IMG/VR virus record: IMGVR_UViG_3300007344_000219
Span: 1-25,029 of that record
Strand: one strand, 5' to 3'
Source of the DNA: a virus
DNA length: 25,029 nucleotides
The notes under the pieces are model-generated. The model did not search any database. It was given only the letters and a program-made list of their open reading frames with translations, and was not told where the DNA came from. Positions 10,851 to 24,621 of the stretch are shown here, in pieces; the stretch's first letter is position 1; each line of letters opens with the position of its first letter. The translations under genes and the position numbers were made by a program.

Positions 10851-11597
10851 ATGAAAATATTAAAACCAGGTGAAGAAGGAACAGGTTTTTTGGTAGAATT
10901 TGATTCGGGATATATTACACCAGAATTAACTTGTCCTGATGGGGTTTGTTCTAATAGAAATTTAATTAGAGAATTTAAGTCAGGAACTAATTTAGGTGAG
11001 AATGGTGAAATACCTGAAAAAGTTGAGATATACGCTGTATTACAAAAATGGGGTGTTGAAAATAAGAATGGTCGGGTATACCCTGAAGAAATATTAAAAA
11101 GAGAAGCTAAAAGATATCAAGAATTTATTGATATGGGAACTTCGTTGGGTGAATTAAACCACCCTGAATCATCTATTATTGATGCCGACAGAGTATCACA
11201 TAGAATCACCGAGATATGGTGGGAGGGACGAACTCTAATGGGTAAAATGGAATTAGATACAACACCAGGTTACCACAAAATGGGTGTCATATCATCTGTT
11301 GGTGATAAAGTTCTTAATATGATTAGAAAAGGTTGGACCGTTGGTATATCTTCAAGAGGTGTTGGTTCCCTTAAACAAGAAGGTGGTAAGAATATAGTAC
11401 AAGATGATTTTGAACTTATTTGTTGGGATATAGTAACATCTCCTTCTACACCGGGGTCTTGGATTTCATCAGAAAAATCAGATTTAAAACCATATACAGA
11501 ATCTACAGAAAAAAAATCTATTGAATTTGAGGAAGTTAAAAAAACTACATTAAATGAAAATAAGGTTATGGATGCCTTGAAAAAATTCTTAGATTAA
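10851..11597 (+). CDS. 21: Prohead core protease (T4 gp21-like)
   Basis: This serine protease sits in the prohead core and, in T4, cuts capsid, scaffold and internal proteins after (L/I)-x-E, then removes itself. The family core is clear: KWGVENKNGRVYPEEIL (67-83), a catalytic histidine in GELNHPE (H104), and the catalytic serine in GWTVGISSRGVGS (S167 or S168), followed by DFELICWDIVTSPSTPGSW (186-204). Length 248 against 212 in T4; the N-terminal 55 residues are extra. The C-terminal tail carries TTLNE|NK (233-238), a possible self-cleavage site. In T4 gene 22 follows directly; here a homing endonuclease, three leader genes and others intervene. Confidence 0.95.
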   Translation: MKILKPGEEGTGFLVEFDSGYITPELTCPDGVCSNRNLIREFKSGTNLGENGEIPEKVEIYAVLQKWGVENKNGRVYPEEILKREAKRYQEFIDMGTSLGELNHPESSIIDADRVSHRITEIWWEGRTLMGKMELDTTPGYHKMGVISSVGDKVLNMIRKGWTVGISSRGVGSLKQEGGKNIVQDDFELICWDIVTSPSTPGSWISSEKSDLKPYTESTEKKSIEFEEVKKTTLNENKVMDALKKFLD

Positions 11598-11614: not shown

Positions 11615-13402
11615 ATGTCCTTAAAAAGCCTTTTAGAAAATAAAAATTATAAAGCAATAGCTACGTTTCTCAAACATCACCCAGAGGAACGTAGTTTTTT
11701 ATTGCAACAAACACAACATATACCCAATAATACTGAAATAAAGAATAACGAACTGGTTTATATTATTGTTAATAACCTAACAAATAAACCAAAATGTATT
11801 TGTGGTAAAGATTTGGTATATGTTAAACCTAATGTTGGATATAAAATCACTTGTGGTGATAAAGTGTGTATTGATACCATCGCTGTTGAAAAGAGGTCTA
11901 AAACAAACAAAAAACGATATGGTGGTAAAACACCCATGAGTTCACCAAAAGTAAGAGAAAAAGTAAAACAAACAATAAAAGAAAAGTATGGTGTTGATTC
12001 TGTTTTTGATATAGATGGTGTTAAAGAAAAAACCATCAAAACCAATATTGATAAATATGGCACAGAATGGTCCTCACAATCAGAAGTTATTAAAGAAAAA
12101 TCTAAAAATAATTTATTAGATAAATGGGGTGTTGATTGCACCCAAAAATTAGATTTTGTTAAAAATAAAACAAAAAAAACTAATTTGGATAAATATGGTT
12201 CCGAAGAATTTTTTGGTGCCAAAATTAATAGGGAAAAGATTAAATCCACTTGGGATAACAAATATGGTGGCCATCCGTTAAGGTCTGATAAGGTTAAAAA
12301 TAAAATCGTTAAAACAACTCTAGAAAAATGGGGTGTTACCCATGTATCCAAAACAAAATTAGTTAAAGATAAAATATCAAAAGCCTTAACCAAAAGATGG
12401 TTAGAATTTATGTCCATCGATGATAAGAATTTTATTAGAAAAGATGAGGATGGTTATTATATTTTATTTTGTGAAGAAACTGGTAAAGAATATAAAATTA
12501 ACCCAGTTACATATAATAGAAGAAAAAGAAATGGTGAAGTAATATCTACTTACTTAAACCCTATAAATAAAAGTTATTCTAAAGGTGAAACAGAGTTGTT
12601 TGATTATATTAATTCAATATATGATGGTGAAATATTAAAAAATAATAGAGAAATCCTTGGTGGTTATGAATTAGATATTGTTATTCCTGAATTAAAATTA
12701 GCTTTTGAATATAATGGTATGTATTGGCACTCAGAAGAAAATAAACCAAAAAAGTATCATCAAAATAAATTCTTAAAATGTGAGGAAGTTGGTTATAGAT
12801 TAATACAAATATGGGAAGATGAGTGGCAAAACGAAAATAAAAAAATAAAATCTTATATTAACCATATTATTGGTAAATCGGATAAAAAAATATATGCCAG
12901 AAAATGTGATGTTAAATTAATTGAACCAAAGGAATATAAAAAATTTTGTGAATTAAATCATTTACAGGGGTATGCTAGAGCCAAACATAAAATAGGGTTA
13001 TATTATAAAGATGAGTTGGTTTCTGTAATGAGTTTTTGTACACCAAGGGTAAAATCTAAAGAAGTTATTGAATATGAGATGATTAGATTTTGTAATAAAT
13101 TAGGTTATTCTGTTATTGGTTCGGCATCAAAAATATTTAAGTTTTTCTTAGATGAAATAAAACCAAAATGTATTATAACTTATTCTGATATGGATAAATT
13201 TAATTCAAATTTATATGTAAATTTAGGTTTTCAATTTGTTGGTTTTACTGAACCTAGTTATTTTTACTATTATAACGGAGAAAGGGTGAATAGATTCAAA
13301 TTAAGGAGGTCCAATGTTATAAAAGAAAGTATAGACATTACCAAATATGTTAAAGTGTTTACGTCAGGAAATAAGAAATTTTTATGGCGCAGCATCTTTT
13401 AA
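11615..13402 (+). CDS. Free-standing homing endonuclease, Vsr-like nuclease
   Basis: The 595-residue protein has four parts. An N-terminal region holds a possible Cys pair motif (CICGKDL, 61-67, with C80 and C85). Residues about 98-262 are seven 23-residue repeats centred on YG/WG at 102, 125, 148, 171, 194, 217 and 239, each with K-rich helices; such repeats are known DNA-recognition modules in phage endonucleases. The nuclease core is ELDIVIP (D354), AFEYNGMYWHSE (E365, H372) and QIWEDEW (398-404), as in Vsr-like (EDxHD) homing endonucleases. Residues about 427-565 resemble a GNAT-like fold. It lies 17 bases after the prohead protease gene and probably targets a site in head genes of related phages. 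The C-terminal half is homologous to the minus-strand gene at 18880. Confidence 0.88.
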   Translation: MSLKSLLENKNYKAIATFLKHHPEERSFLLQQTQHIPNNTEIKNNELVYIIVNNLTNKPKCICGKDLVYVKPNVGYKITCGDKVCIDTIAVEKRSKTNKKRYGGKTPMSSPKVREKVKQTIKEKYGVDSVFDIDGVKEKTIKTNIDKYGTEWSSQSEVIKEKSKNNLLDKWGVDCTQKLDFVKNKTKKTNLDKYGSEEFFGAKINREKIKSTWDNKYGGHPLRSDKVKNKIVKTTLEKWGVTHVSKTKLVKDKISKALTKRWLEFMSIDDKNFIRKDEDGYYILFCEETGKEYKINPVTYNRRKRNGEVISTYLNPINKSYSKGETELFDYINSIYDGEILKNNREILGGYELDIVIPELKLAFEYNGMYWHSEENKPKKYHQNKFLKCEEVGYRLIQIWEDEWQNENKKIKSYINHIIGKSDKKIYARKCDVKLIEPKEYKKFCELNHLQGYARAKHKIGLYYKDELVSVMSFCTPRVKSKEVIEYEMIRFCNKLGYSVIGSASKIFKFFLDEIKPKCIITYSDMDKFNSNLYVNLGFQFVGFTEPSYFYYYNGERVNRFKLRRSNVIKESIDITKYVKVFTSGNKKFLWRSIF

Positions 13403-13485: not shown

Positions 13486-13923
13486 ATGAAAAAGAAGGTT
13501 ATTAGATTAACAGAATCCGATTTGGAAAAATTGGTTAAAAGGGTTATTAAAGAAGAGTATGATAACCATATGGAACAACCATCAATTATTGGTGATATTG
13601 AAGGTGATTTAATGGAGATGTCAAATGACGAAGCATTAGAATATTTAGAAGATATTATTCAATATTGTATGGATAAAAAACAAGAGTTAAGTTCAGAATC
13701 AACAGAAGAAGAAATAGGTGAACATACCCAAGAAGAAATGAACGATGTTTGGCGTAAATTAAATGAGTGGAATAGTGAATCTGTTTTTGAGAGAATGGAA
13801 AGAACATTTAACGAAGAATCTATGAGTGTTGAATATTTTGTAGACTCCCTACCAACCCATTTTGGTTATGATGAAGATTACCTAATATCAGTATTAAAAC
13901 AAATTAAAGAAGAAGGGATATAA
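13486..13923 (+). CDS. Leader-bearing small acidic protein 1 (putative head-internal)
   Basis: The 145-residue protein starts MKKKVIRLTESDLEKLVKRV and continues IKE|EYDN; both L-T-E at 8-10 and I-K-E at 21-23 fit the prohead protease signature. The rest is acidic and mostly helical (EEEIGEHTQEEMNDVW, MSNDEALEYLEDIIQYC) with no recognised domain. The leader is shared with the next two genes and with that at 24205, while the bodies are unrelated: the arrangement of T4-type internal proteins, whose N-terminal leader sends them into the prohead. I infer head packaging and leader removal; the body's role is unknown. No ATATTTATA lies right upstream, but ATATATTTATTA occurs around 13410-13421. Confidence 0.8.
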   Translation: MKKKVIRLTESDLEKLVKRVIKEEYDNHMEQPSIIGDIEGDLMEMSNDEALEYLEDIIQYCMDKKQELSSESTEEEIGEHTQEEMNDVWRKLNEWNSESVFERMERTFNEESMSVEYFVDSLPTHFGYDEDYLISVLKQIKEEGI

Positions 13924-13925
13924 AT

Positions 13926-14453
13926 ATGAAAAAGAAAGTTATTAGATTAACAGAATCCGATTTGGAAAAATTGGTTAAAAAAATAATCACAGAGGTTGGT
14001 GGTTATGATGACCCAAGTATTATGGGTACTCACACAGCTAAGTCAATGGAAAACTTAACAGGAGTATATGATGAGTTATCGAATATCTTACAAGGGTTGG
14101 CTAACGCTATTATGGATGATTTTTCTGTATCAGAATTAAGTGATTTCTTAAATGATGTTGTTAATGAAATAGAAATCCTAGTAGATACAATCCAAAAAAC
14201 AATTAAAGATTTTACAGAGGATGATATGATTGCTACAGCAAAAAGATTTATAAAAGAATTAAAATCATTCCAAAGAAAAATTATTGTATTAATGAATTTT
14301 TCAGATTCTATGGGTAATGAATTAGAATTTAAGGAAAGATTAAAGAATATGGTCCAAGGTTTAATTCCAATGGTTAAAGAATATGGGAAAAAACTTAGAA
14401 TAACAAATGATACATTTAGAGATAGATTCTCAAGTGGTATGGGTTTTAATTAA
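13926..14453 (+). CDS. Leader-bearing small protein 2 (putative head-internal)
   Basis: The 175-residue protein carries almost the same first 20 residues as the preceding gene, then ITE|VGG (I21, E23), a good (L/I)-x-E site. Its first 55 bases match those of the previous gene at all but one position, whereas the remainder does not align. The body is helical and amphipathic (about 40-150) without recognised motifs or membrane spans; segments such as LSDFLNDVVNEIEILVDTI suggest helical bundles. It starts 2 bases after the previous stop, so the two are in one operon. Probably packaged cargo; function unknown. Confidence 0.8.
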   Translation: MKKKVIRLTESDLEKLVKKIITEVGGYDDPSIMGTHTAKSMENLTGVYDELSNILQGLANAIMDDFSVSELSDFLNDVVNEIEILVDTIQKTIKDFTEDDMIATAKRFIKELKSFQRKIIVLMNFSDSMGNELEFKERLKNMVQGLIPMVKEYGKKLRITNDTFRDRFSSGMGFN

Positions 14454-14461
14454 AAAAAATA

Positions 14462-14917
14462 ATGAAAAAGAAAATTGTAAGATTAAACGAATCTGAATTT
14501 ATAAGATTAGTTGAAAAGGTTGTTAGAAGAGTTAATAAAAAACCTTTAAGAGAATCTAGAAATAGAAAAAGAATGATTAGAGAAAATACTAGTGATATGT
14601 ATACATTAGAATTTTATTACACGACAGGTGAGGAAGATTATGGTGATGAAGGTTATGATGATAGTGGTTATGTAGAAGGTCAATTTGTTGTAAACATACC
14701 TAAATCTATTTTTAGACAAATAACTGGTATAGATTCTATTACAGGTGATGAAGAATTTGAACCTTGTAATAGTGATGAAGGTGGGGAATTACTTGATTAC
14801 ATGTTAGATTCTTATTACAAAGGTGATTATGTGATTTCTAAAAATACTATAACAGGTAGAGATATGGAACCAGACATTGACTGTAGTTGGACACAAGGTG
14901 TGATTACAGTTAAATAA
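14462..14917 (+). CDS. Leader-bearing small protein 3 (putative head-internal)
   Basis: The 151-residue protein begins MKKKIVRLNESEFIRLVEKV, a diverged version of the leader of the two genes before it. A very basic stretch follows (about 21-40) with two further candidate sites, PLRE|S (E31) and MIRE|N (E41). The body after residue 45 is beta-rich and acidic (YTLEFYYTTGEEDYGDEGYDD, split by loops; FVVNIPKSIFRQI; EPCNSDEGGELLDY) and resembles no family I know. Length of the removable basic leader is greater than in the neighbours. A terminator follows at 14929, closing the three-gene group. Confidence 0.78.
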   Translation: MKKKIVRLNESEFIRLVEKVVRRVNKKPLRESRNRKRMIRENTSDMYTLEFYYTTGEEDYGDEGYDDSGYVEGQFVVNIPKSIFRQITGIDSITGDEEFEPCNSDEGGELLDYMLDSYYKGDYVISKNTITGRDMEPDIDCSWTQGVITVK

Positions 14918-17105: not shown

Positions 17106-18827
17106 ATGGGATATTTATTAAAATCTGGTGAAGTTGGAAATATCGGAACTAAACACCAAAAAGCAGTTCGTGAGGCAACTGTAAACAAATGGGAATCTTT
17201 AGGATTCTTAGAAGGATTAGAAGGACACGTTAGAGAAAACATCGCTTTGTTATATGAAAACCAAGCAACAACTTTAATTAACGAAACTTCAACTGAAGGT
17301 GGAGCATCTACTGGTTCTTTTGAAACTGTAGTTTTCCCTATCGTTAGAAGAGTATTCTCTAAATTATTAGCTAATGACATCGTATCAGTACAAGCTATGA
17401 ACTTACCAATCGGTAAATTGTTCTACTTCGTACCTAAAATTTCTGATAGAGTTGATGGTAGCCACGGTGAACCAGTTGTTACAACTTGTTTAGATGCTGG
17501 ATGTTCAGGAACTACTTACCAAAACGCTGTTAAGAGTTTATACGACCAATTCTATAACGATGGTTTATTTGACCAATCAAAAGGAAAAATCACTGTTAAA
17601 TATTTAACTGGTTCTACTGTAGCATTTAATGCTGATAGTGAGTTAGTTTCTGGTGATAGTGCATTAGCTGGTGACGGTTCAAGAAGAAACCAAATCTTAA
17701 TGTTACAAGGATTTGTTGGAACAGGAGCTGGTAGATTACAAGGACCAGACGGACACGAAATGGATACTGAATCTTTCTTAGCTTCATTAGCAATTTCTAG
17801 TACTTCAGATATAGAAGACCCTAACGCTGACGTTATTATTGCAGCAAACAATCCAATTCCTTTTAGAGTTGTTACTCAAAAATACGGAAAAGGTATTGTT
17901 GATTATGGAAGTGATATTTGTGATGCTGACGGTAAAATCTATATTGATTTAGATTTAACTCACCCAGTATGTGCTAACTGTGATAACGGAACTATCGATG
18001 GTTATATCGGAGCTTCTACAGGAGCAACATTAAATGGTTTAATCGCATCTTACCACTCTTACGATGACTTAGAATTAGAATCTCAAATGGGAGAAGTTTC
18101 TTTCGAATTAGATTCTGTTACAGTATCAGTTACTGAAAGAAAATTAAGAGCTACATGGACTCCTGAATTAGCTCAAGACGTATCAGCATTCCATAACATT
18201 GATGCTGAAGCTGAATTAACAGCTTTATTGTCTGAGCAAGTTGCAGCTGAAATTGACCGTGAGATTTTAAGAGATTTAAGAAAAGGTGCAGCATGGCAAT
18301 TACGTTGGGATTACAACGGATGGAAGAGATTGTCTAACAACGCTTCTTATACACAAAAAGACTGGAATCAAACATTAATCACTGCGATTAACCAAATTTC
18401 AGCACAAATCCACAAATCTACATTAAGAGGTGGAGCTAACTTTATCGTAGTATCTTCTGAGGTATCAGCTATCTTTGATGATTTAGAATACTTCCACGTA
18501 TCTAACGCTTCTCCTGAGCAAGATAACTACAACATGGGTATTGAAAGAATTGGTTCATTATCAGGAAGATATACAGTATACCGTGACCCTTACGCACCGG
18601 CTAGTTCAGTGTTAATCGGACACAAAGGTAAATCTTTATTAGATACTGGTTATATCTACGCACCATATGTTCCTTTACAATTAACACCAACAATGTATAA
18701 CCCATTCAACTTCGTACCTGTTAAAGGTATCATGACACGTTACGCTAAGAAAATGGTTAACAACCGCTTCTACGGACAAGTTTCAGTTGATGGTTTACGT
18801 ACATTCGATATCAGAGAGTTAAGATAA
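17106..18827 (+). CDS. 23: Major capsid protein (T4 gp23-like)
   Basis: This 573-residue protein (T4 gp23: 521) forms the hexamers of the HK97-fold shell. The conserved start of the mature part is FPIVRRVFSKLLANDIVSVQAMNLPIGKLF (about 79-108, in pieces FPIVRRVF and VQAMNLPIGK), followed by the family block TPELAQDVSAFHNIDAEAEL (about 354-373) and the end pieces YTVYRDPYAP, GYIYAPYVPLQLTP and FVPVKGIMTRYAKK. The propeptide ends in TTLINE|TSTEGG: L57-I58-N59-E60, aligned with T4's cut after E65, so maturation by the gp21-like protease is likely. Codon choice favours TTC, AAC, TAC and GGA more than neighbours, consistent with very high expression. A strong terminator follows. Confidence 0.97.
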   Translation: MGYLLKSGEVGNIGTKHQKAVREATVNKWESLGFLEGLEGHVRENIALLYENQATTLINETSTEGGASTGSFETVVFPIVRRVFSKLLANDIVSVQAMNLPIGKLFYFVPKISDRVDGSHGEPVVTTCLDAGCSGTTYQNAVKSLYDQFYNDGLFDQSKGKITVKYLTGSTVAFNADSELVSGDSALAGDGSRRNQILMLQGFVGTGAGRLQGPDGHEMDTESFLASLAISSTSDIEDPNADVIIAANNPIPFRVVTQKYGKGIVDYGSDICDADGKIYIDLDLTHPVCANCDNGTIDGYIGASTGATLNGLIASYHSYDDLELESQMGEVSFELDSVTVSVTERKLRATWTPELAQDVSAFHNIDAEAELTALLSEQVAAEIDREILRDLRKGAAWQLRWDYNGWKRLSNNASYTQKDWNQTLITAINQISAQIHKSTLRGGANFIVVSSEVSAIFDDLEYFHVSNASPEQDNYNMGIERIGSLSGRYTVYRDPYAPASSVLIGHKGKSLLDTGYIYAPYVPLQLTPTMYNPFNFVPVKGIMTRYAKKMVNNRFYGQVSVDGLRTFDIRELR

Positions 18828-20553: not shown

Positions 20554-23100
20554 ATGAATATAAAAGAAATGAATGATTTTGATTGGACATCAGATATTAA
20601 AGCTGGTGAAACTTTGGGTAATATAAAACAAAATAATTTTCGAGGATATAATGTTGGTGACAAAATAACGGTTACAGGTGGTATATATATTGAAGATTAT
20701 GATGGTGATAGAGATGGTTGGATTTGGTTAAGTAATGAACCATTTATGATTAATGATATTATCCCAAATTTGGGTAGATTCGTTCTATTAGCACTTAATG
20801 AAAAATTAATTAACAACCCTGAAAATAAACATTTCTTATTAAATGATTGGAATGAATTATATATCGGAGATTATCACCAAGATAATGATTTATTAATTTC
20901 ACGATATATTGAAAATCTAAAAGAAGATAATGATTTTGATTGGATAAATGATATTGATGATAGTAAACCACAAAAAGGAACTGCTTGGGCAATAACAGGT
21001 ATTAAGAATGAGACTGACTCTATCCAATGTCAGAAATTCTTATTTAATCTTGGTTTTGGGTGGGTTAATGATGCAAAAGAAATTATTTACACCCCAGCAA
21101 AACAATTCGGTTCTATATTTCGTGGTGACATTAAACACAAGTTATTTGGTTTAAGTTCTAAACAGGGGATAGATAGTACCATAGAAATAGCCAAAGGAGA
21201 AAGTAGACAAGACAAACTATATCATTTTGAGTGGGTTAATGGTGAAACAAAATTAAAAGATATTATTTATTTAACTGATAACATAAACGAATCCAATGAT
21301 TTTGATTGGGTTGAAGATGTTAAATACACATTAGGTCAATTAGTTGATTTAGGTGATTTATCTGTTGGGGATAAACTTATATTACGTGGTAATGTGTTTA
21401 ATAATAAGACACACCAAAGAACATACGTTGATAACTTTGAAGTTGAAATCGTTAGTAAATCTAAATATAGAGAAGGTCTAGATGGGTATGGTATGAGTTT
21501 TAGTCCTGAACGTGGAGATGTGGTTGATGCTATGGGTGGTGTTATTAACACTGAAGATATATCATTTCTAAAACAAGATAGGGATTTAGAAGTTGTTCAA
21601 CATATTAAATCTAATGATAGATTAAATGAAGATAATGATTTTGGTTGGGCTGGAAATGTATCATCTGAACCTGATTTTGATATATGGGAAAAGGTGACCA
21701 ATATAATTGATAATGAGGTATCACAAGGACCTAATTATGATTCTTGGGTTGGTTCTAACTCTTACAATGAATTAGATAATATATTAAGTAGGTATGAAAT
21801 AGATATTGATGATATGGGTGATTTTTTCACTTTCCCACCAAAAAATAAAAATGGGGTGGAGATTAACCATTACCAAATACAAGAAATATTAGATGATTTG
21901 TTATTTAATGGTTATGATGACCCAAATGATGATTATATGTTAGAATCTTATAACCCATTTGATTTTGGTTGGGCTGGAGGTGAAGTTCACTTAAAACCCG
22001 AATATGTTATTGGTAGAAGAATATGTTATAGAAAACAAAAAAATAACATTAGTTCATATAATCTGTTCAAATATAATAGATATGAACTAAAACTTAATGA
22101 TGTTAGAGAAGTAGATTGTTGGGTTATAGACCATATAGATGGGGATAATGTTGTGATAGAGATGGAAGATACTGGTGAAGATATGGATTTCAGGTACGAC
22201 AGAGTTGAACAATTACTAAATTTAGGTGTGTGGGCAATAATGAATGATGATGGTTCTATTGAAAATGATTTTGTAAACCCAAATATTAAAGAATCTATTA
22301 AATATATTAATAACGTTGTTAAAGAATTATCCATTTTAAGTGAGGATGGCAAAACCGAACCCGATATGGAATGGGATTTATCAGATAATATCAAAAAAGA
22401 TTTAGACAGGTCAAAAAAATGGGTTAAAACTGGTGAAGACGTTAAAGAATATGTTAAGGTTTTAATGGATAAGATAAAATCTTTACCAAAAGCAACAAAG
22501 AAAAAGATTATTGGTTATGCTTTATTGGGTATGGTATCTGTTAACACAATAAATAATTACATTAGTGATGTTGAAAAAGAAAAACCTACCGATACTGAAA
22601 TAATTAGGTCTAACATAAAAAAACCTGCAATAAGAAAACCAAGTTATGAATTAAAACAATTTATTAAAAGTGAAGAAAAGTTAAGATTAACAGCTTATGA
22701 AATAGGTGATGATATGGTTACAATAGGTTATGGACATGCTGAACCAACTACAAAAACAAAAATGATTCCTGGTAAAACAAAAATCACAAAAGAAAAAGCT
22801 GAAAAATTATTTGAAAAGGATATTGAGGAGGCGTCAAACGGGTTAAATAGGATATTAGATTCATGGGTAGACCAAGGTATTGATGTTGAAATAACTCAGG
22901 GTATGTACGACGCTATGACATCAATGATATTTAATATGGGTATTGGTAATTTTAGAATGTCTGATTTTATTCAAATGGTTAAACGTGGTAATTATCAACA
23001 AGCACAAGATACAATTAAAACAACCAATGTAACTTATCCTGGACATAAACCAAGAAGAGAAAAAGAATCAGAGATGTTCGGGGGATATTATAATATTTGA
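20554..23100 (+). CDS. Multi-module NDFDW polyprotein with C-terminal GH24 lysozyme
   Basis: The 848-residue protein is built of segments that each start with (L/I)-x-E and an NDFDW-type motif: IKE|M-NDFDW (E5), LKE|D-NDFDW (E124), INE|S-NDFDW (E246), LNE|D-NDFGW (E359) and a weaker MLE|S-YNPFDFGW (E464). Further sites are IKE|S (E580) and LSE|D (E597). Between them lie four or five modules of about 105-122 residues that mostly do not resemble each other; the first and third share a VGDK beta motif. Residues about 648-672 are hydrophobic. The end (about 696-848) is a T4-type lysozyme: FIKSEEKLRLTAY with catalytic E707 or E708, MVTIGYGHA, and AMTSMIFNMGIGNF. I infer head cargo split by the prohead protease, the last piece degrading peptidoglycan. 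An uncut tail lysin is the alternative. Confidence 0.88.
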   Translation: MNIKEMNDFDWTSDIKAGETLGNIKQNNFRGYNVGDKITVTGGIYIEDYDGDRDGWIWLSNEPFMINDIIPNLGRFVLLALNEKLINNPENKHFLLNDWNELYIGDYHQDNDLLISRYIENLKEDNDFDWINDIDDSKPQKGTAWAITGIKNETDSIQCQKFLFNLGFGWVNDAKEIIYTPAKQFGSIFRGDIKHKLFGLSSKQGIDSTIEIAKGESRQDKLYHFEWVNGETKLKDIIYLTDNINESNDFDWVEDVKYTLGQLVDLGDLSVGDKLILRGNVFNNKTHQRTYVDNFEVEIVSKSKYREGLDGYGMSFSPERGDVVDAMGGVINTEDISFLKQDRDLEVVQHIKSNDRLNEDNDFGWAGNVSSEPDFDIWEKVTNIIDNEVSQGPNYDSWVGSNSYNELDNILSRYEIDIDDMGDFFTFPPKNKNGVEINHYQIQEILDDLLFNGYDDPNDDYMLESYNPFDFGWAGGEVHLKPEYVIGRRICYRKQKNNISSYNLFKYNRYELKLNDVREVDCWVIDHIDGDNVVIEMEDTGEDMDFRYDRVEQLLNLGVWAIMNDDGSIENDFVNPNIKESIKYINNVVKELSILSEDGKTEPDMEWDLSDNIKKDLDRSKKWVKTGEDVKEYVKVLMDKIKSLPKATKKKIIGYALLGMVSVNTINNYISDVEKEKPTDTEIIRSNIKKPAIRKPSYELKQFIKSEEKLRLTAYEIGDDMVTIGYGHAEPTTKTKMIPGKTKITKEKAEKLFEKDIEEASNGLNRILDSWVDQGIDVEITQGMYDAMTSMIFNMGIGNFRMSDFIQMVKRGNYQQAQDTIKTTNVTYPGHKPRREKESEMFGGYYNI

Positions 23101-23304
23101 TTCTTCACGTAACATTCTTGCTGCATCACCTTCCATTAATTCAGCTATATTAATACGGTTTTCGGTTGTTAACCCATCTAGTAAACCACTTTCTTGCCAT
23201 CTTCTAATAATTTCTTCTCTATCGGTTGGGAAAGGTATTTCATACTGAATGACTGGACCACCTGATATAAAATCGTGTTTTTGTATTTTTTTTTTAATTA
23301 ACAT
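23068..23304 (-). CDS. Small protein resembling the major capsid propeptide
   Basis: The 78-residue protein aligns without gaps to the gp23-like propeptide in this window: W36 to E67 here against W29 to E60 there, with 13 identities over the 33 positions that include the next residue, among them W, GxL, GL, R-x-NIA, L-x-E and the final E. It ends MLRE|E, a (L/I)-x-E site at the place of LINE|T, plus only 11 more residues. The N-terminal 35 residues differ. There is no shell domain. Its 3' end overlaps the lysozyme gene by 33 bases, tail to tail. It starts 9 bases after a terminator hairpin with no evident promoter, so expression is uncertain; it could be a relic of a capsid or vertex gene. 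Confidence 0.6.
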   Translation of the reverse strand: MLIKKKIQKHDFISGGPVIQYEIPFPTDREEIIRRWQESGLLDGLTTENRINIAELMEGDAARMLREESNIIISPEHL

Positions 23305-23313
23305 AAAAATATT

Positions 23314-23333
23314 GGTGGGGATTTGACCCCACC
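23314..23333. terminator. Bidirectional terminator
   Basis: GGTGGGG (23314-23320) pairs with CCCCACC (23327-23333) around ATTTGA, with a long T run on the right and an A-rich stretch on the left. It can end the lysozyme transcript on the plus strand and the GTKWC-protein transcript on the minus strand. Confidence 0.85.
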
Positions 23334-23340
23334 ATTTTTT

Positions 23341-24081
23341 TTATTCTTTAATTCCACGTTCTTTGGCCATCTCTTTATTTGTAGGACCATTCTCCAAACG
23401 ATTGTTAATGATTGTTGTGATTTCGTTACCCAACATTGAATAAACTTTCATGAAATTACCCACACCCAATTGTGAATCTTTAACATCCCATAAAGTAATC
23501 CCATCTTTTTTACTTCTATCGTTGTGGAAAGCTACTTTAGCAAAATCATTAGAACGATATTCAGTTTCTTTAACTGATTTGTCAATAACAAACACTAAAC
23601 AACCATTCTCTATATATTGTTTATAGTATTTACCATAGTTATTATCTTCTGAAGATACACACCATTTAGTTCCTTTACCATAAACATTAGAACTTCTAAC
23701 AGATAAAGGGTATAAAACTAACCATCTATCATCTTCGTATAAGATTTCAGTTTCTTTGTTTTTAACCTCAGAGATTGTAACCTTTTCTTTAGCGTTTTTA
23801 ACTGTTTGAACAATATCTGGATTTGATGGGTATGAATAAATATCTTTATTCTCCAAAAGATTTCGTTCAGACAAGTCATGGAAATCCCTAATAACATCAA
23901 ACATTTCCTTAAAAGTGTTCTCTTTTAATTCTTTTTCAATCCATTCAACCCAATCTGAAACAGATTTAATCATAAACGGTAAATACTTGTTTGTTTTAGA
24001 TGGGTCCATTGCTGATAAAATATCAATGATACTGATATTGTAGTTTGGGTTTTGTTCTTTTAGTTCCTTAATTTTTGCCAT
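23341..24081 (-). CDS. Hypothetical protein with GTKWC motif
   Basis: The protein is 246 residues from the ATG at 24081; a frame extending to a TTG at 24123 is less likely. I have no function for it. The most distinctive part is about 117-170: WLVLYPLSVRSSNVYGKGTKWC (in pieces WLVLYPL and YGKGTKWCVSS, 134-144), then GKYYKQYIENGCLVFVID and a later KVAFHNDRS and ITLWDVKD. I recall similar GxxTKWC proteins in other large phages but cannot name the family. The N-terminal 100 residues are charged and helical. On the minus strand upstream there is TATATTTG (about 24123-24130), like a Bacteroidota -7 element, so this gene may use host RNA polymerase. No leader of the head-targeting type is evident. 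Confidence 0.82.
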   Translation of the reverse strand: MAKIKELKEQNPNYNISIIDILSAMDPSKTNKYLPFMIKSVSDWVEWIEKELKENTFKEMFDVIRDFHDLSERNLLENKDIYSYPSNPDIVQTVKNAKEKVTISEVKNKETEILYEDDRWLVLYPLSVRSSNVYGKGTKWCVSSEDNNYGKYYKQYIENGCLVFVIDKSVKETEYRSNDFAKVAFHNDRSKKDGITLWDVKDSQLGVGNFMKVYSMLGNEITTIINNRLENGPTNKEMAKERGIKE

Positions 24082-24180
24082 ATCTATTAATATTAATTCG
24101 GTTTTTAACTTTAACTCCAACAAATATATTAATTCTTTTTTAATTAAACAATATATAACCTAATTTTTTGGAAGTTAATG

Positions 24181-24189
24181 ATATTTATA
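24181..24189 (+). promoter_or_regulatory. ATATTTATA motif
   Basis: ATATTTATA in the context ATGATATTTATAAG, 15 bases before the ATG at 24205. The upstream in-frame ATG at 24178 overlaps the motif and is unlikely to be the start. Confidence 0.55.
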
Positions 24190-24204
24190 AGAAAAGAAAT
24201 TATT

Positions 24205-24621
24205 ATGAAAAAAATTATAAAATTAAAAGAATCTGATTTGGGAAGGCTGGTTAGAAGGGTTATTAAAGAAGAGGAAGAAGTTAAAAAAGAAAAATCTACT
24301 ACTTTAACTAAACACCCTGCATACCCAGCAATAGATAGATTGGAGAGGGAGTTAGAAAACTTAAAAATGGAATTTAAGGATAGTATTGCTAATGCTGTAT
24401 CGGGTGAAGATGGGTATCATAGTGAAATCGATAAATTCTCTGAAGATTTTGGTAAATTCATTACTAAAGTATCTAATTTGAAATCTAAAATAAATGATTA
24501 TCAAATAGCTAATAAAGATAAGGAAATGGCTGAGGCTAGAAAACGTAAAGAAAAACAACGTCAATATCAACACCATATGAGAGAAAAGGCTAGAAAAGAT
24601 GGTCGTAACTATTCTTATTAA
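24205..24621 (+). CDS. Leader-bearing basic protein (putative head-internal)
   Basis: From the ATG at 24205 the protein is 138 residues and begins MKKIIKLKESDLGRLVRRV, the leader type of the genes at 13486, 13926 and 14462, with IKE|EEE at 20-22. The body is a highly charged helix (about 45-105, ERELENLKMEF, SEIDKFSEDFGKFITKV) ending in a very basic tail (ARKRKEKQRQYQHHMREKARK) that could bind DNA, as many head-internal proteins do. The start is preferred over 24178 because the leader begins there and the ATATTTATA motif lies 15 bases upstream. I infer packaging with the genome; no enzymatic motif is seen. Confidence 0.8.
   Translation: MKKIIKLKESDLGRLVRRVIKEEEEVKKEKSTTLTKHPAYPAIDRLERELENLKMEFKDSIANAVSGEDGYHSEIDKFSEDFGKFITKVSNLKSKINDYQIANKDKEMAEARKRKEKQRQYQHHMREKARKDGRNYSY

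Follow-up and report, generated by a model that had tools for sequence, protein, structure and literature searches.

A small gene of an uncultured T4-like phage joins a family tag to a segment homologous to the gp23 propeptide

The virus record analysed here, a 25,029-base stretch of DNA taken whole (the window), carries on its minus strand a 78-aa gene, P0001. Our preferred reading is that P0001 is a genuine accessory gene of chimeric make-up, encoding a tagged partial mimic of the major capsid protein gp23. Residues 1-27 of P0001 are the N-terminus of a small-gene family that occupies the same locus in related phages, and its C-terminal half is homologous to the gp23 propeptide. The gp23 profile matched none of the 18 other locus-family members that were compared and P0001 alone among the 19; P0001 is therefore a chimera of the locus-family tag and a gp23-propeptide module. 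T4-type head genes are present in the window (terminase, portal, S77 prohead protease, a core-like protein and gp23), as are two homing endonucleases and a lysozyme-containing ORF.

23068..23304, minus strand: P0001, 78-aa coding sequence including the stop codon (ORF list, translation, coding signal)
23224..23304, minus strand: tag, the N-terminal module 'MLIKKKIQKHDFISGGPVIQYEIPFPT', residues 1-27 (L089, 74% over residues 2-28)
23098..23220, minus strand: gp23-propeptide-like module, residues 29-69, matching gp23 22-62 (BLASTP, profile, shuffles)
23104..23112, minus strand: L-R-E, residues 65-67, aligned with INE of gp23; putative prohead-protease (L/I)-x-E site
23068..23100, minus strand: 3' end of P0001 (10 codons and stop), overlapping the end of the lysozyme ORF in antisense
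17106..18827, plus strand: full-length gp23-like major capsid protein, 573 aa (Pfam Gp23, 5e-72)
17169..17291, plus strand: counterpart of the P0001 module within the gp23 propeptide, residues 22-62 (alignment)
10851..11597, plus strand: prohead protease (Peptidase_S77 domain match)
23341..24081, minus strand: conserved 246-aa neighbour that anchors the synteny; in relatives it is closely followed downstream by P0001-family genes
20554..23100, plus strand: 848-aa lysozyme-containing ORF, convergent with P0001 (Pfam and collection matches)
23313..23334, no strand: terminator-like hairpin GGTGGGG-TCAAAT-CCCCACC, with T-runs on both strands

The two modules of P0001

An earlier note on this DNA had described a 78-residue minus-strand gene at 23068-23304, and the frame is as described, with an ATG at 23304 and a stop codon at 23068-23070. 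The coding signal of P0001 was gene-like (0.26 log-likelihood per codon, and 0.51 in the gp23-like half), and the other five frames over it had negative values. The terminator-like hairpin sits between two genes, the ATG of P0001 directly following its minus-strand T-run; no promoter-like site for P0001 stands out at this start. P0001 runs for its final ~10 codons into the 3' end of the lysozyme ORF, on the opposite strand; its tail after LRE is thus overlap sequence, and the similarity to gp23 ends at the border of that ORF.

In BLASTP, residues 29-69 of P0001 aligned gap-free with residues 22-62 of the gp23 encoded in the window, 16/41 being identical (E 9e-8, as a single comparison). This is the same register as the gap-free pairing of residues 36-67 with 29-60 reported in the earlier note, which had also correctly placed the final (L/I)-x-E at the same spot in both proteins and the end of the frame 11 residues later; the LRE of P0001 falls on the INE of gp23. 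By the rule known from T4, (L/I)-x-E is the cleavage motif of the prohead protease; the enzyme that would read it here is the Peptidase_S77 protease of the window. In a search of 12,668 frames (80 relatives plus the window), P0001 found, apart from itself, all 80 gp23s and the gp23 of the window ahead of everything else (best E ~2e-6). The best gp23 alignment scored 40.4 bits with P0001 itself, while none of 5000 shuffled versions exceeded 26.2 bits (BLAST, gp23 N-termini), and the excess likeness to gp23 on which the earlier note depended was thereby borne out.

The homology spans the propeptide module of gp23 (~20-62), with the protease motif at the module end. Only positions 22-62 of the 581 in the full gp23 model matched P0001, and Pfam Gp23 detected no HK97-fold capsid domain in it. 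The segment was 39% identical to the phage's own gp23, and its nearest match was not gp23 but a stand-alone protein of a relative, L133 (53% over 43 residues); it is thus no fresh copy of the gp23 in the window. Searches of Pfam, PHROGs, the phage collection, plasmids and genome contigs gave no useful match to P0001, and a second scan of genome contigs returned gp23 itself only. No full-length homologue was found in these searches, and P0001 is known from one contig, itself a fragment. Related gp23s were found in contigs binned with Bacteroidota, but with other groups too.

The N-terminal module belongs to another conserved family. Directly downstream of the anchor gene, relatives have small genes that encode 75-132 aa. 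Their first ~25 residues ('IQKHDFISGGP..QYEIPF') are similar to those of P0001, with a likeness that ranges from close to, in the most distant genes, weak; residues 2-28 of P0001 were 50-74% identical to the family, with E down to 8e-12. P0001 shares both the position just downstream of the 246-aa anchor and the K-x-I-x-K-H-x-F-x-x-G module. Such a small gene is absent downstream of the anchor in L003 and L086. Relative to L089 and L095, codon changes in the tag were mostly synonymous (pN/pS 0.17-0.21, over 26 codons with synonymous sites near saturation). The rest of the family members differs from P0001. Their C-terminal parts are unrelated to that of P0001 and mostly beta-rich-looking, and many end 'LNYWDGNQWIEI'-like or 'TEDRVREIV'-like; the longer middle part of the family and its 'TExRVREI' or 'YWDGNxW' C-terminus are not in P0001, where only an LTTENR stretch recalls the tail. 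As these other members have no capsid pieces, the tag is not tied to capsid mimicry. The anchor gene itself belongs to a large family; G041 and G032 contain many paralogues of it, complete or partial.

The earlier note had called P0001 the propeptide without the capsid. This stands for the C-terminal half, a gp23-propeptide homologue with no capsid domain in a gene-like frame, and it fails for residues 1-27, a separate module, so that a free propeptide is not a complete description of P0001. Relatives in which the frame is fused to a different protein, which the note had listed as an argument against its view, do exist, in that members of the tag family carry unrelated C-terminal parts. The note's other suggestion, a relic of a broken gp23 or gp24, was not upheld, given a tag that is read in frame, a strong coding signal and a best match to a stand-alone protein instead of gp23. 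A gp23 or gp24 gene broken in place was rejected as well, because there is no further gp23 sequence nearby and the phage's own gp23 is intact.

In the AlphaFold model of P0001, which is of intermediate confidence (mean pLDDT 70), strands 3-11 and 16-25 are predicted to form a beta hairpin and residues 28-39 and 47-69 two helices; a Foldseek search of this model against the PDB found no significant match.

Motifs like the one at the end of P0001 were also seen elsewhere in the window. The 848-aa lysozyme ORF has several 'NDFDW'-type units with an (L/I)-x-E-like triplet before each (for example LKE-DNDFDW, INE-SNDFDW and LNE-DNDFGW), and may be a polyprotein cut by the prohead protease. Many small proteins, at 13486-14917, 24178-24621 and 1938-2300, have the common N-terminal motifs 'MKKKVIRLTESDLEKLVKRVIKE' and 'MxxKxIIREEIxDFDW', which end in I-x-E and resemble capsid targeting sequences; similar N-termini occur throughout the relatives.

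Capsid pieces in related phages

A profile made from gp23 N-termini, P0001 and three first finds was run on 46 virus records. It recovered gp23 in most of them and also 11 stand-alone ORFs in nine of the 46: G004, G005, G011, G032 (two), G033, G034, G041 (two), G050 and G051. The ORFs of G004, G005 and G011 were members of the profile; the other stand-alone ORFs were not. Applied to nine isolate or reference phage genomes, the same profile gave gp23 itself in seven and no match in two, T4 included; one of the seven, LR756508, had a further weak 118-aa frame (E 0.006).

L133, 4782-5093: stand-alone gp23-N-terminus ORF, 103-104 aa
L135, 2635-2808: 57-aa ORF with nothing but the propeptide (profile search)
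L125, 2604-3224; L134, 2917-3534; L136, 2550-3173: conserved 205-207-aa proteins with a gp23-like N-terminus

The only significant matches of the L133 protein in the phage collection were gp23 N-termini (7e-4 and 2e-3). This protein, from G032, recurs as 100% copies in four other contigs, which speaks against an assembly error, although these contigs still represent one phage type, not five. Each of the L125, L134 and L136 ORFs immediately follows an isochorismatase-like gene and has a NUDIX gene upstream; this setting may connect them with NAD or ADP-ribose metabolism and with capsid-sensing TIR defence. A 210-aa protein beside the propeptide-like ORF of L124 (L161, 7224-7856) has two short stretches like gp23 530-550 and one like 'RATWTPELAQDV', its profile scores not being significant.

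Other parts of gp23 also recur. The full gp23 profile, run on 21 records and fetched regions, identified small ORFs with segments 507-574, 533-572, 424-469, or 335-404 followed by 2-133 or 65-118. In L156, L158, L157, L192, L193, L194 and L196, two adjacent ORFs form one unit: gene 1 has a C-terminal gp23 segment (weak in L157), and gene 2 has 335-404 and then an N-terminal segment. Three gene 1/gene 2 examples were recognised by Pfam Gp23 above its cut-off (29, 79 and 75 bits). None of the pieces collected draws on gp23 134-334, 470-506 or the extreme ends. The AlphaFold model of the permuted gene 2 of L192 (mean pLDDT 44.8) was too poor for use. In all, about 20 capsid-piece ORFs were found in relatives beyond the stand-alone 57-aa propeptide of L135, and the idea in the earlier note that pieces of the capsid protein may serve as free proteins gains support from both. 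G032 and G041 retain a full-length gp23 beside the pieces. The pieces are patchy among relatives and positioned away from the head genes; G003, G006, G007, G039 and G045 have gp23 and no pieces, so the pieces are no core part.

A gene with a DruA (Druantia) domain adjoins the cluster of capsid-piece ORFs at L159 1643-2794 (the copy with the Pfam match), and the same type of gene is present at L160 1172-2329 and G041 293719-294867. In record G038 (12522-12649), gp23 appears split near its N-terminus into 50-aa and 536-aa frames, possibly by a sequencing error or a frameshift. That the pieces form a split vertex protein is unlikely, as many relatives lack both gp24-like genes and pieces.

Among the head proteins tested, gp23 alone recurs as small pieces. 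In a self-comparison of the 699 genes of G032 and G041, gp23 was the large protein with parts recurring in small ORFs; the other partial matches came down to N-terminal motifs in common, to calls that were truncated or overlapped, and to the usual sharing of domains, as in a 152-aa lysozyme-like protein. Profiles of the terminase, portal, protease and core of the window found essentially only their own orthologues.

Several of the ORFs with gp23 segments bear a P0001-type tag; most stand-alone propeptide pieces lack it at the N-terminus. A tag model built from locus-family members only, with the capsid-piece ORFs left out, was searched against 709 proteins: the 699 from G032 and G041 plus 10 hand-added gene 1 and gene 2 proteins. 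Eight of its best nine matches were capsid-piece ORFs, half of which were in the set because they are capsid pieces; the ninth was an ATPase-like protein with the tag at its C-terminus. The enrichment (hypergeometric 7e-13) thus refers to a set enriched by hand; within the two genomes alone, two of the top three matches were capsid-piece ORFs (p 5e-4). Several matches were individually weak (E 0.01-0.2), as the tag has only ~15 residues. Other ORFs end 'PIKYIPKHKL'-like, a possible resemblance to the tag. Two small proteins with a Walker-A-like 'GRQTGKST' start (L159 2795-3211 and G041 295465-296109) have tag-like C-termini, 'LKPIKKHGF' and 'KYIKKHRFINGK'; these ATPase-like ORFs were considered as terminase pieces and rejected, as the terminase profile did not match them.

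Between two phages, orthologous pairs of capsid pieces had pN/pS values of 0.33-0.58, except for piece 512-570 at 0.91; two neighbouring genes had 0.14 and 0.56. The pieces thus evolve faster than a well-conserved neighbour, and the constraint on them is real but moderate. By these values, orthologous capsid pieces appear to be mostly under purifying selection.

Possible roles of P0001 and the capsid pieces

We hold it plausible, though short of probable, that P0001 competitively mimics the N-terminus of gp23, the partner being left general. The short tag, a predicted beta hairpin, is the mark of a small-gene family in this T4-like phage group; in P0001 it is joined to a gp23-propeptide copy whose end coincides with the protease motif. 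P0001 would then belong to a wider class of small genes outside the head cluster that carry capsid pieces, several of them tagged. Its propeptide-like helices would bind whatever binds the N-terminus of nascent gp23, and P0001, itself unable to build a shell, would shield or divert that interaction. A host capsid-sensing defence protein, a chaperonin, the prohead core and the capsid of a rival phage are candidate partners. The expression, binding and competition of P0001 are what we infer here; the patchy presence of the pieces and their location apart from the head genes are compatible with an accessory role or one in conflict.

Small phage genes annotated without a function are a main reservoir of counter-defence. 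Capsid proteins are among the signals sensed by bacterial immune systems: CapRel is triggered by a capsid protein (PMC9712102), CmdTAC is triggered by gp23 (PMC11618068), and Lit acts via the Gol region of gp23 (PMC3014915). More broadly, and more tentatively, uncultured T4-like phages, probably of Bacteroidota, may encode dispersed partial capsid mimics, several tagged and some permuted or split, with P0001 as the propeptide member; these could act, for example, as decoys for capsid-sensing defences or poisons of rival capsids.

Two serious rivals remain. Neutral recombination, which we consider unlikely, would have joined a gp23 N-terminal segment to a tagged gene, its end being set by chance in the lysozyme gene and the frame being still open because the event was recent. 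That P0001 is unique to one contig among the loci searched, that its gp23 similarity stops at the lysozyme ORF border and that homing endonuclease genes flank gp23 on both sides are as this reading would have it. However, a recent copy is at odds with a segment closer to a stand-alone protein than to the phage's own gp23, with the strong coding signal and with the retention of other pieces in different phages, mostly under purifying selection.

A role as head-assembly cofactor is, in our judgement, also unlikely. The gp23 propeptide itself docks in the prohead core; the propeptide-like half could likewise dock P0001 there and the protease cut at LRE, P0001 serving as a minor scaffold or as a handle by which the tag is delivered. 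The window encodes the Peptidase_S77 protease, and the (L/I)-x-E position is kept in P0001, L133, L124, L125 and L196, but the motif is missing from many stand-alone propeptide pieces, and the genes lie outside the head cluster. Precedents that count for such a role are the short N-terminal targeting peptides of T4 internal proteins, cut by gp21 (PMC9958956), and the longer ones of SPN3US (PMC5694885).

It is improbable that the gp23-like part is a GroEL-targeting peptide, one that would direct P0001 to the chaperonin or occupy it and so adjust the folding of the capsid or of tagged small proteins. The analogy is with T4, in which the gp23 N-terminus appears to be a strong GroEL-targeting signal for fusion proteins (Snyder and Tarkowski 2005, as cited in PMC3012670); pieces 335-404, 424-469 and 507-574 are not N-terminal and would need another explanation. 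Finally, a chance or convergent likeness of amphipathic helices is very improbable: the segment is short (41 residues) and helical, and family tails such as 'LTTEERVREIF..ILRED' are loosely similar to that of P0001, but all 80 gp23s rank first, no shuffle approached the gp23 score and no other locus-family member matches gp23.

Competitive mimicry thus remains our preferred reading of P0001. An intact capsid gene together with conserved, tagged and sometimes permuted pieces provides testable candidate decoys or assembly modulators, and the tag is a handle for finding more such genes.

Comparison with known systems

No published report of such capsid-piece genes was found in the open-access subset of the literature that was searched, which is weak evidence of novelty; the tagged and untagged pieces of the relatives suggest a so far unreported class of partial capsid mimics, in which the N-terminal domain of gp23 is reused outside the capsid protein.

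The T4 gp23 propeptide comprises residues 1-65 and is removed by gp21. This removal takes place in the prohead (PMC9958956). Like the propeptide, P0001 has a homologous 41-residue stretch, recognisable in the gp23 of this phage group, that ends at (L/I)-x-E; unlike it, the stretch of P0001 is preceded by a foreign tag, and no capsid domain comes after it. The propeptide of T4 itself is too diverged to match the profile. Similar to the capsid targeting sequences of the T4 internal proteins IPII and IPIII, P0001 has a short module with (L/I)-x-E at its end by which a small protein could be brought into the prohead, but the T4 sequences are N-terminal and of ~10 aa, whereas the P0001 module is C-terminal, of 41 aa and gp23-derived. 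The vertex protein gp24 of T4 is a gp23 paralogue with a full-length capsid fold, unlike P0001; the gp23 profile finds gp24 in T4, and no full-length gp23 paralogue in these phages. Ccm of the satellite SaPIbov5, a homologue of capsid proteins with the full HK97 fold, redirects capsid assembly (PMC8569155). P0001 resembles Ccm as a capsid-protein homologue in the position of an accessory protein and differs in that only pieces are present here, in the phage's own genome.
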